Source of the DNA: Citrobacter sp.
Lineage (GTDB): Bacteria; Pseudomonadota; Gammaproteobacteria; Enterobacterales; Enterobacteriaceae
NCBI GenBank assembly: GCA_019415335.1
Contig: DXKH01000015.1
Span: 124,001-188,000, forward strand
Direction of reading: 5' to 3'
DNA length: 64,000 nt
Position 1 is the stretch's first letter, and every line of letters starts with the position of its first letter. The notes beneath the pieces are model-generated. The model searched no databases. It was not told the DNA's origin and was given only the letters and a program-made list of their open reading frames with translations. The position numbers and the translations under genes were made by a program. Positions 16,724 to 32,994 of the stretch are shown here, piece by piece.

Positions 16724-16744
16724 ACGGGGCCTTATAGGCCCCGG
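16724..16744 (-). terminator. manXYZ terminator hairpin (distal copy, with T-run)
   Basis: Reading the minus strand, GGGGCCTATAAGGCCCC-type stem is followed by TTTTATC. The second copy 142 bp nearer to manZ lacks the T-run. Confidence 0.65.
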
Positions 16745-16906
16745 GAGAGTGATGACAAACTTCATCCCGATACCGGGCAAGCAGAGATCACCTACTTAAA
16801 AACCAGGAAAATCAATTTATTGATTTTCGGCTGATAACCACAATGAAGGAAAAACCACGTTTTTTCCTTCATTGTCAGCAGTATGACGGGGCCTTATAGG
16901 CCCCGG
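16724..16906. repeat. Copy A of a 141-bp intergenic element with 21-bp flanking direct repeats
   Basis: A 141-bp core (16745-16885) is bracketed by two identical copies of a terminator-like hairpin containing GGGGCCTTATAGGCCCC (16724-16744 and 16886-16906). The core matches the core at 32834-32974 over its whole length. It can fold into three hairpins: an outer GTGAT...ATCAC pair, AAAATCAAT/ATTGATTTT, and a long CAATGAAGGAAAAA/TTTTTTCCTTCATTG stem. For manZYX transcripts (minus strand) only the distal hairpin copy at 16724-16744 keeps a U-run. This looks like an inserted element with target duplication; I do not recognise its family. Confidence 0.8.
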
Positions 16907-16921
16907 TAGTGTACTACAGTC

Positions 16922-17773
16922 TTACAGACCCAACAGGCCGACCGCATAACCCGCGATACCGATGACGAAGAAGCCAACGATAATCCACAGCGGGTTTACT
17001 TTCTTACGCAGCAGCCACATACAGGCGAAGGTAAGCAGCAGCGGAACCAGACCCGGCATCAACTGGTCGAGAATAGTCTGTACGGTGGTAACGCGCGTCT
17101 GACCATCCTGCCCGGTGATGGTTGAGACCACTAGTGGAATGTTCACGTGCGTCCACTTGTTAACCAACGCCCCCATGACAAACAGGCCGAGGATTGACGC
17201 CCCCTCAGTCAGTTTTTGCAGGAAGCCGCCGCCCATATCCTTAACGATATCGACACCTTTGCGGTAACCGTAGGCGACACCGTAGTAACGGGTCAGCAGA
17301 CGGACTGCGTTGAACAGAATGAAGAACAGTAATGGGCCAAGCAGACTGCCGCTCATCGCGATACCCGCACCTAACGCGGCGAATACCGGACGCACAGTCC
17401 CCCAGAAAATCGGGTCACCCACGCCTGCCAGCGGCCCCATCAGACCGACTTTGATACCGTTGATGGCACCATCGTCAATCTCTGCGCCATTAGCACGCTG
17501 TTCTTCCATTGCCAGCGTTACGCCGAGAACCGGTGCCGCAACGTACGGATGGGTGTTAAAGAATTCCAGGTGACGCTTGATGGCTTGCTTACGCGCATCG
17601 TTGTTCTCTGGATACAGGCGACGAATAGCCGGTACCATGGAGAAACAGAAACCCAGCGCCTGCATACGTTCGAAGTTCCATGAACCCTGAAACAGGTTAG
17701 AACGAATGAACACGCCACGAATGTCACTCTGTGTGAGTTTTTTCTCAGTGGTAGTTTTAGTCATATCAACCAT
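16922..17773 (-). CDS. manZ: ManZ, mannose PTS permease IID component
   Basis: 283 residues of the EIID-mannose family (KLTQSDIRGVF start region, conserved NFERMQALGF and GPLAGVGDPIFWGT segments, C-terminal membrane helix ending GLLGL). With ManY it forms the inner-membrane channel for mannose, glucose, glucosamine and related sugars. The ATG at 17773 has AGGTGAG directly upstream and matches E. coli; a GTG 9 bases earlier overlaps that ribosome site. It lies 12 bp after manY. Confidence 0.96.
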   Translation of the reverse strand: MVDMTKTTTEKKLTQSDIRGVFIRSNLFQGSWNFERMQALGFCFSMVPAIRRLYPENNDARKQAIKRHLEFFNTHPYVAAPVLGVTLAMEEQRANGAEIDDGAINGIKVGLMGPLAGVGDPIFWGTVRPVFAALGAGIAMSGSLLGPLLFFILFNAVRLLTRYYGVAYGYRKGVDIVKDMGGGFLQKLTEGASILGLFVMGALVNKWTHVNIPLVVSTITGQDGQTRVTTVQTILDQLMPGLVPLLLTFACMWLLRKKVNPLWIIVGFFVIGIAGYAVGLLGL

Positions 17774-17785
17774 TTCGCTCACCTG

Positions 17786-31019: not shown

Positions 31020-31036
31020 AACTGGTACGCTGAGTT
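31020..31036 (+). promoter_or_regulatory. FadR operator of fadD
   Basis: AACTGGTACGCTGAGTT matches the FadR half-site CTGGT and the sequence/position of the E. coli fadD operator, and is followed by the same conserved TAATATTATGTTAACG promoter region. FadR, encoded at 55.9 kb, represses fadD until long-chain acyl-CoA is present. Confidence 0.75.
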
Positions 31037-31108
31037 AATATTATGTTAACGACTTGTTTATTATCTGGGGTTGAGATGACGACGAACACTCATTTTAGAG
31101 GTGATGCA

Positions 31109-32794
31109 GTGAAGAAGGTTTGGTTAAACCGTTATCCCGCAGATGTGCCTGCGGAGATCAATCCTGACCGTTATCAATCCCTGGTGGAACTGTTTGAACA
31201 TGCTGTCGTACGCTATGCCGATCAGCCCGCATTTGTGAACATGGGGGAGGTGATGACCTTCCGCAAGCTGGAGGAGCGTAGCCGCGCCTTCTCTGCTTAC
31301 CTGCAACAGGGGCTGGGACTGAAAAAGGGCGACCGCGTTGCGCTGATGATGCCAAACCTGCTGCAATATCCGGTGGCGCTGTTTGGCATTCTGCGTGCCG
31401 GGATGATCGCGGTGAACGTCAACCCGCTTTATACCCCGCGTGAACTGGAGCATCAGCTAAACGACAGCGGGGCGGCGGCGATCGTGATTGTTTCCAACTT
31501 CGCCCATACCCTGGAAAAAGTGGTTGATAAAACCAGCGTTAAGCATGTCATTCTGACCCGTATGGGCGACCAGCTTTCCACGGCTAAAGGTACGCTGGTG
31601 AACTTCGTCGTGAAGTACATCAAACGACTGGTGCCGAAATACCATCTGCCGGATGCGATCTCTTTTCGCAGTGCGCTGCACGCCGGTTACCGTATGCAGT
31701 ATGTTAAACCGGAAGTGGTTTCTGCGGATCTGGCGTTTTTACAGTACACCGGCGGAACGACCGGGGTGGCGAAAGGGGCGATGCTGACGCACCGCAACAT
31801 GCTGGCCAACCTGGAGCAGGTGAAGGCCACTTACGGACCGCTTTTGCATCCGGGTAAAGAACTGGTGGTGACCGCGCTGCCGCTGTACCACATTTTTGCT
31901 CTGACCATGAACTGCCTGCTGTTTATCGAACTGGGCGGGCAGAACCTGCTGATCACCAACCCGCGCGATATTCCGGGTCTGGTGAAAGAGCTGGCAAAGT
32001 ACCCGTTTACCGCCATGACCGGTGTGAACACCTTGTTTAACGCCTTGCTGAACAATAAAGAGTTCCAGCAGCTGGATTTCTCTTCTCTGCATCTTTCTGC
32101 GGGCGGCGGCATGCCGGTACAACAGGCGGTGGCAGAGCGGTGGGTGAAGCTGACCGGACAGTATCTGCTTGAAGGATACGGCCTGACCGAATGCGCGCCG
32201 CTGGTCAGCGTTAACCCGCACGATATTGATTATCACAGCGGCAGCATCGGCCTGCCAGTGCCGTCGACCGAAGCCAAACTGGTGGACGATGACGACAATG
32301 AAGTGCCGCCGGATCAGCCGGGTGAGCTGTGTGTGAAAGGACCGCAGGTGATGCTGGGCTACTGGCAGCGTCCTGATGCGACGGATGAGATCGTCAAAGA
32401 TGGCTGGCTGCACACGGGTGACATCGCGGTCATGGATGATGAAGGTTTCCTGCGCATTGTCGATCGCAAGAAAGATATGATTCTGGTCTCCGGCTTTAAC
32501 GTTTATCCGAATGAGATCGAAGATGTGGTGATGCAGCATCCGGGCGTGCTGGAAGTGGCTGCCGTCGGCGTTCCGTCCGGCAGCAGCGGCGAAGCGGTGA
32601 AGATTTTTGTGGTGAAAAAAGAGGCTTCGCTCACTGAGGAGGCGCTGGTCACTTTCTGCCGCCGCCAGCTCACAGGCTATAAAGTCCCGAAACTGGTTGA
32701 ATTCCGCGATGAACTGCCGAAATCAAACGTCGGCAAAATTTTACGTCGAGAATTACGTGACGAAGCCCGTGCCAAAGTGGACAATAAGGGCTGA
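31109..32794 (+). CDS. fadD: FadD, long-chain acyl-CoA synthetase
   Basis: 561 residues, adenylate-forming enzyme. The P-loop YTGGTTGVAKGA, the core YGLTECAPL and the C-terminal hinge GFNVYPNEIED are intact. It converts exogenous fatty acids to acyl-CoA at the inner membrane, driving uptake (vectorial acylation). The GTG at 31109 with AGAGGTGAT upstream is preferred to an earlier in-frame ATG because it gives the E. coli length. Regulated by FadR. Confidence 0.97.
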   Translation: MKKVWLNRYPADVPAEINPDRYQSLVELFEHAVVRYADQPAFVNMGEVMTFRKLEERSRAFSAYLQQGLGLKKGDRVALMMPNLLQYPVALFGILRAGMIAVNVNPLYTPRELEHQLNDSGAAAIVIVSNFAHTLEKVVDKTSVKHVILTRMGDQLSTAKGTLVNFVVKYIKRLVPKYHLPDAISFRSALHAGYRMQYVKPEVVSADLAFLQYTGGTTGVAKGAMLTHRNMLANLEQVKATYGPLLHPGKELVVTALPLYHIFALTMNCLLFIELGGQNLLITNPRDIPGLVKELAKYPFTAMTGVNTLFNALLNNKEFQQLDFSSLHLSAGGGMPVQQAVAERWVKLTGQYLLEGYGLTECAPLVSVNPHDIDYHSGSIGLPVPSTEAKLVDDDDNEVPPDQPGELCVKGPQVMLGYWQRPDATDEIVKDGWLHTGDIAVMDDEGFLRIVDRKKDMILVSGFNVYPNEIEDVVMQHPGVLEVAAVGVPSGSSGEAVKIFVVKKEASLTEEALVTFCRRQLTGYKVPKLVEFRDELPKSNVGKILRRELRDEARAKVDNKG

Positions 32795-32813
32795 GCGTTA
32801 AGCAACACGTCAA

Positions 32814-32994
32814 ACGCCGGGTGAATCCGGCGTGAGGTGATCACAAACCTTATGCCGATGCCGGACAAGCAGAGATCACCTCATTAAAAACCAGGAAAAT
32901 CAATTTATTGATTTTCGGCTGATAACCACAAAGAAGGAAAAACCACGTTTTTTCCCCTCTTTGTCAGCAATCTGACGCCGGGTGAATCCGGCGT
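32814..32994. repeat. Copy B of the 141-bp intergenic element with 20-bp flanking direct repeats
   Basis: The 141-bp core (32834-32974) is flanked on both sides by ACGCCGGGTGAATCCGGCGT (32814-32833 and 32975-32994), itself the fadD terminator hairpin. The core is the same as copy A except for about 15 substitutions and two balancing single-base indels. Its outer arms form a perfect GAGGTGATC/GATCACCTC pair, the middle hairpin AAAATCAAT/ATTGATTTT is unchanged, and in the third stem T-A of copy A is replaced by A-T, a compensatory change. Only the distal terminator copy keeps the T-run. Confidence 0.82.

Follow-up and report, generated by a model that had tools for sequence, protein, structure and literature searches.

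The 141-bp element present twice in the window, that is, in the 64,000-nucleotide stretch of a Citrobacter sp. contig analyzed here, is very probably a non-autonomous MITE of the IS1182 type, related to YPAL through its ends, that inserts at terminators and duplicates their hairpin because it is joined at each of the hairpin's two 5' feet. Observed in support of this reading are the common ends, the dispersal in many copies, the empty sites, the hairpin-length duplications centered on the hairpin axis, and transposase-bearing relatives with equal ends and an equal target. The proposal of the initial annotation, a non-autonomous element with terminator palindromes as its target, is borne out: the element is multicopy, its empty sites hold one hairpin, the hairpins are site-specific, and a full-length relative carrying a transposase was found in the form of IS1182-family elements with equal ends. 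The family had not been recognized, but the ends are those of YPAL/RU-2 and are also carried by IS1182-family insertion sequences. The features in the window are as follows.

16745..16885, minus strand: MITE copy 1, 141 bp, with the CAGAC-type end first on the minus strand
16745..16759, plus strand: terminal inverted repeat of copy 1, GAGAGTGATGACAAA
16871..16885, minus strand: other terminal inverted repeat of copy 1, CATACTGCTGACAAT; the form met more often is CAGACTGCTGACAAA
16840..16875: subterminal hairpin of copy 1 predicted by folding, adjoining the CAGAC-type end
16724..16744: distal copy of the target duplication at manZ-yobD, with a T-run on the minus strand; terminator hairpin at 16725-16743
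16886..16906: proximal copy of the target duplication at manZ-yobD (manZ side), without a T-run
32834..32974, plus strand: MITE copy 2, 141 bp, with the GAGAG-type end first on the plus strand, that end being diverged, GAGGTGATCACAAAC
32814..32833: proximal copy of the target duplication at fadD-rnd (fadD/sroD side), without a T-run
32975..32994: distal copy of the target duplication at fadD-rnd, with a T-run directly after it

Both cores lie where they had been annotated, with the same length. The element ends in 15-bp inverted repeats that are imperfect, GAGAGTGATGACAAA and CAGACTGCTGACAAA. The few changes that had been reported between the two copies aligned end to end hold for a gapped alignment (91.0% identity over 133 columns, blastn), but not for an ungapped one, in which 65 of 141 positions are identical, with compensating indels. 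The flanking direct repeats are exact and, as had been noted, unlike between the two loci: 21 bp for copy 1 (16724-16744 = 16886-16906) and 20 bp for copy 2 (32814-32833 = 32975-32994), both hairpin-forming. The host genes, named from their E. coli orthologues, are both on the minus strand at manZ-yobD and both on the plus strand at fadD-rnd. The observation that a T-run stands beside the distal copy only is correct at both loci, where it directly follows the distal hairpin (minus strand, 16743-16725; plus strand, 32974-32995), although the scan for a hairpin with a T-run is not by itself above chance (1 site vs 0.7 expected and 2 vs 0.7, the second of these 2 being an unrelated overlapping pattern). 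The opposite orientation of the copies relative to transcription was also read correctly, as the end met first downstream of manZ is of the CAGAC type and that downstream of fadD of the GAGAG type. At fadD-rnd, an Rfam match to sroD (32753-32839) terminates 6 bases within copy 2. The 141-bp element itself gave no Rfam match at gathering thresholds; the three matches in the window are sroD, cspA and a tRNA.

A search of 39 related genomes yielded at least 55 matches, spread over 8 of them, with at least 22 in one genome, a lower bound since 22 of the 51 candidates there were scored. The 56 copies examined comprise the two in the window and 54 loci, one of the 55 matches having been left out as an internal palindrome of another copy. 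The duplication flanking the window copies extends to copies elsewhere, and was found in 41 of the 56, with a hairpin at both sides in 39; by the rules applied, none was detectable in the other 15, of which ten had matches of less than 100 bp and five (L013, L025, L028, L089 and L099) are full-length or nearly so. Empty sites, which the initial annotation had suggested seeking in sister strains, exist in congeners: the fadD-rnd site is filled in four of eight and empty in four, and the manZ-yobD site is filled in two of eight and empty in six. The empty sites hold a single hairpin; at fadD-rnd, the T-run comes directly after it. The two host regions were matched in 5375 and 5372 of 5426 E. coli genomes, and in none of these did one place account for 80% of the filled query. 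With the 141-bp element, blastn at E 1e-5 found nothing in 20,395 E. coli records and nothing in 50,697 phage records. Most simply, both insertions arose inside the genus and duplicated a terminator hairpin that was already there. The presence of hairpins at both sides of 39 copies would also be expected if these belonged to the element, which would then bring its own terminator pair; however, the flanking hairpins vary by locus, and they are not the element's own because the empty sites of sister species already carry the locus hairpin once, making this explanation scarcely credible. The element is thus short and non-coding, has inverted terminal repeats, and is multicopy, with target duplications and empty sites, the traits by which a MITE is defined.

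The RNA of the element is strongly folded whichever strand is transcribed, with z from -4.3 to -6.2, and YPAL is said in a review perhaps to influence RNA stability (PMC2229807). Both points would suit copies that are kept mainly as stable 3'UTR RNA structures useful to the host, their mobility being long past, but presence and absence vary among congeners and some copies are decayed. We regard such a service to the host as improbable as the main explanation; it is, in any event, compatible with a transposon origin.

The published terminal sequences of RU-2 (YPAL; Table 1b of PMC2759123) are shared by the 141-bp element. Like YPAL/RU-2, with its ends CAGACTGCTGACAAA ... TTTGTCAnnnnnCTC, it is intergenic, has empty and filled sites and shows a long duplication at a dyad symmetry, but it has neither the interior sequence nor the length of about 167 bp. 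For YPAL, a review describes target duplications of 3 to 26 bp, targets that span or adjoin dyad symmetries, and empty and filled sites (PMC2229807). With 7 of 13 candidates scored, a 165-bp YPAL core gave no match at E 0.001 in G001, a genome with 10 MITE matches. In 119 genomes of the order, the YPAL matches listed were interior fragments only, and a search for ends and target duplications at 30 loci from YPAL matches gave no convincing element. A near-full YPAL-like copy is present in 15 of 17 matching plasmid records; two of these copies were examined, and their side hairpins are the same in the stem and unlike in the loop. Kristensenii 39, a 142-bp Yersinia repeat listed in PMC2847712, could be a relative.

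The ends of the MITE are also common to insertion sequences of the IS1182 family. A search with PF13751 revealed an IS1182-type transposase gene, broken by frameshifts and bounded by MITE-type ends (L066), and BLAST located IS1182 elements of about 1.59 kb on plasmids of Salmonella, Providencia, Klebsiella, Salinivibrio and Vibrio. Exact hairpin duplications of 16-28 bp flank 8 of the 11 plasmid-borne elements analyzed (a 12th was left out); in L069, a duplication is present but the loop is reverse-complemented, and the hairpins differ between the two ends in L070 and L071, as could result from recombination between copies. Unlike hairpins at the two ends are also seen in the first-found element, L066. 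A scan of GTDB genomes gave 80 insertion sequence loci, of which 44 were hand-picked for a near-full match and sequence at both sides. A duplication of 16-38 bp was found in 30 of the 44 (27 exact) and none, by the rules applied, in 14; CAG...CTG ends were required, and because of this L149, with a visible hairpin duplication, was missed. All 30 duplications are centered within 0.5 bp of the hairpin axis, by an axis finder that mildly favored centered axes, and a mismatched-flank control gave a target duplication of equal quality in 0 of 200 trials, so that the duplications exceed chance. The hosts of the duplication-flanked insertion sequences include Serratia, Providencia, Izhakiella, Alishewanella, Vibrio, Pseudoalteromonas and Marinobacter, as well as Nitrospirillum, a Desulfuromonadales bin and Clostridia. 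All six intact transposases tested scored 390-497 bits against NF033551 (cut-off 270) and contained PF05598 and PF13751, in a set without L175, which contains stops, and L186. Thus, the CAGACTGCTGACAAAG-ended subgroup of the IS1182 family resembles the MITE in its ends, its terminator target, its hairpin duplication and, often, a hairpin just inside the end, and differs in measuring about 1.5-1.63 kb with a transposase, the MITE being without a gene. The hairpin just inside the CAGAC-type end is strong in both window copies and in five of the seven insertion sequences folded, with differing sequence. We noticed no likeness of the MITE interior to the insertion sequences, the comparison proper being that of the ends. 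A duplication so long and palindromic had been called unusual, which is right for insertion sequences in general, but it is the usual product in this subgroup.

PF13751 was above cut-off in 1 of 60 genomes of the family and absent from the MITE-bearing genomes G001, G009 and G010; the link in trans depends on the ends because genomes that bear the MITE can be without the insertion sequence. This rarity of IS1182 genes in the sampled genomes, together with IS1202-group duplications of 16-28 bp, could point to mobilization by an unrelated transposase, for example of the IS1202 group. However, the TGT...ACA ends of ISAjo2-type elements of the IS1202 family differ from those of the 141-bp element, whereas the IS1182 elements share both its ends and its targets, and we consider an unrelated transposase very improbable. 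The IS1202 group, considered for its long duplications, was set aside, its ends being unlike and the partner transposase belonging to NF033551, IS1182.

The geometry of the target was analyzed across 69 duplications of MITE and insertion sequences, which represent fewer than 69 independent insertions because orthologous sites in different species are counted. No preference for a centered axis was applied to this set, and in 66 of the 69 the duplication is centered on the hairpin axis to within 0.5 bp. Copies with a low target duplication (TSD) score and L033, L036, L049 and L061 (duplicate loci) were omitted, as were rows with an identical target context and window copy 2, whose left end is too diverged for the pair finder; L025, counted as an insertion sequence, is in fact a MITE locus whose left end apparently contains a different, nested insertion sequence. 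A strong hairpin stands at 67 of the 69 insertion sites, vs 22 of 420 displaced control positions, again more than chance allows. A T-run after the hairpin or an A-run before it, the mark of an intrinsic terminator, is present at 55 of the 69 sites. Among exact duplications, the boundary falls one pair beyond the outermost G:C pair of the stem in 22 of 44.

The length of the TSD follows the span of the stem less closely. The Pearson correlation is 0.50 for the 30 genomic insertion sequences and 0.51 in the 56-copy MITE analysis; other definitions and subsets gave 0.41-0.47, the full range being 0.09 (37 MITE copies) to 0.61 (31 insertion sequence rows), and with the A/T-tract pairs counted in the stem the values are 0.14 and 0.15 for MITE and insertion sequence rows, respectively. 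Because the tracking is only moderate, a gauge near 20 bp may apply. The transposase, acting as a dimer spaced at about 20 bp, would then read a double-stranded symmetry and not an extruded hairpin, the terminators being common palindromes of fitting size. Many duplications do measure 18-24 bp, and the moderate to weak correlation agrees with such a spacing. Yet duplications that range from 16 to 38 bp are axis-centered in 30 of 30 genomic cases, the six longest (28-38 bp), all from Clostridia or other Bacillota records, are on stems spanning 26-40 bp, and targets of 21-85 bp are given for the related IS1272 (PMC5678879). We therefore hold a fixed spacing to be possible but rather unlikely.

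Several known systems invite comparison. IS1272 and TnSha1, both of the IS1182 family and from Staphylococcus, resemble the present subgroup in transposase family and in their stem-loop targets, several of which are confirmed terminators. IS1272 reportedly deletes or replaces the stem-loop, with no duplication, whereas this subgroup duplicates it, and TnSha1 is associated with partial deletion of the hairpin, with several targets confirmed as terminators (PMC4923244). The hairpin-duplicating outcome seen here, with the joining path proposed below, corresponds to hypothetical pathway b drawn in Fig. 13 of PMC5678879. Replacement of the IS1272 type does not describe the present sites, since both window sites and 39 of the 56 copies have a hairpin on both sides and the empty sites have one. 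ISMac2-derived MITEs of Methanosarcina (160 and 169 bp) are likewise assigned to the IS1182 family, but the published table seems to give them direct repeats of 4 and 0 bp (the column order is uncertain), not of hairpin length. ERIC, REP/BIME and RU-3 are, like the 141-bp element, small enterobacterial intergenic repeats; their sequences are not known to resemble it. Published ERIC sequences have TA ends (PMC2229807).

In the mechanism that we propose, the MITE inserts into intrinsic terminators and, judging from its ends, would be mobilized in trans by an IS1182 transposase. On each strand, one 3' end of the transposon would be joined to the 5' foot of the palindrome, either at the foot itself or one or two A:T pairs outside it. 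Joining at both feet would lead to duplication of the hairpin, as repair would then copy it entirely on both sides. The proximal hairpin, separated from the U-tract, would presumably be read through, so that the element would join the 3'UTR, and termination would shift to the distal copy. A broader proposal, to which we give an even chance, is that this IS1182 branch, with YPAL and the MITE as its dependants, recognizes the terminator hairpin by its structure, either extruded as a cruciform or exposed by transcription, and cuts at the two 5' feet. The length of the duplication would then be set by the hairpin, and the gene would stay terminated through the distal copy, which has the T-run, providing a safe landing site from Clostridia to Enterobacterales.

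The targeting of dyad symmetries by a MITE with long duplications is not new, because PMC2229807 already describes it for YPAL. The link between IS1182 and YPAL and the axis-centered duplication appear to be new, within a limited literature search, sparse on subscription journals, that found no paper linking YPAL-type MITEs to IS1182 or describing the 141-bp family, a weak negative. These findings provide a candidate transposase, supported by sequence, for the YPAL-type repeats present by dozens in Yersinia, and actual cases of the stem-loop-duplicating outcome drawn as a hypothesis beside IS1272 in PMC5678879; one transposase family would then duplicate as well as replace hairpins. They also suggest a reason why such insertions can spare termination. 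With known ends, known targets and intact transposases, this is a clean system in which to ask how a DDE transposase sees a terminator. If the structure-sensing proposal is true, this branch would have a built-in safe landing site, and the identity of the YPAL transposase would be given with it.

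At the second copy of the 141-bp element in the window, which lies between fadD and rnd, the duplicated target is the terminator hairpin of sroD. The match to the sroD RNA spans 32753-32839, and its last 6 bases fall inside the element. A weak match to the interior of the element (27 bp, 81%, E 0.08) is also found in the window at 58279-58305 and is probably due to chance. Two further RNA matches were recorded in the window:

12035-12495, cspA thermoregulator RNA
45196-45267, tRNA match of low score (32.9 bits against a cut-off of 29)

Additional MITE types, of 131 to 314 bp, occur in other Enterobacteriaceae genera; they are alike in the type of their ends and differ in their interiors (coordinates are those within each locus):

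L044, 1384-1514, duplication scored, duplicated hairpins on either side
L055, 1501-1631, duplication scored, duplicated hairpins on either side
L059, 1501-1631, duplication scored, duplicated hairpins on either side
L108, duplication scored, duplicated hairpins on either side
L111, duplication scored, duplicated hairpins on either side
L040, 1501-1649, no scored duplication

At another locus (L025, 52-1640), the hairpins flanking a MITE copy are separated by 1589 bp, and it seems that a second insertion sequence landed within the left end of the MITE. A copy resembling YPAL, the Yersinia MITE, is present on plasmids from E. coli and Citrobacter portucalensis (L267 and L268); the two hairpins that flank it are identical in the stem and different in the loop.

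An IS1182 relative in Muricomes intestini (L156) has perfect inverted ends of 17 bp; hairpin duplication was looked for at this locus and not found, and the element is possibly of the replacing type. At the IS1182-family element of the Salmonella plasmid CP053580.1 (L069, 601-2187), both flanking hairpins have the same stem and their loops are reverse-complemented (TCT versus AGA), an arrangement that neither a single simple insertion nor a single inversion of the element produces.
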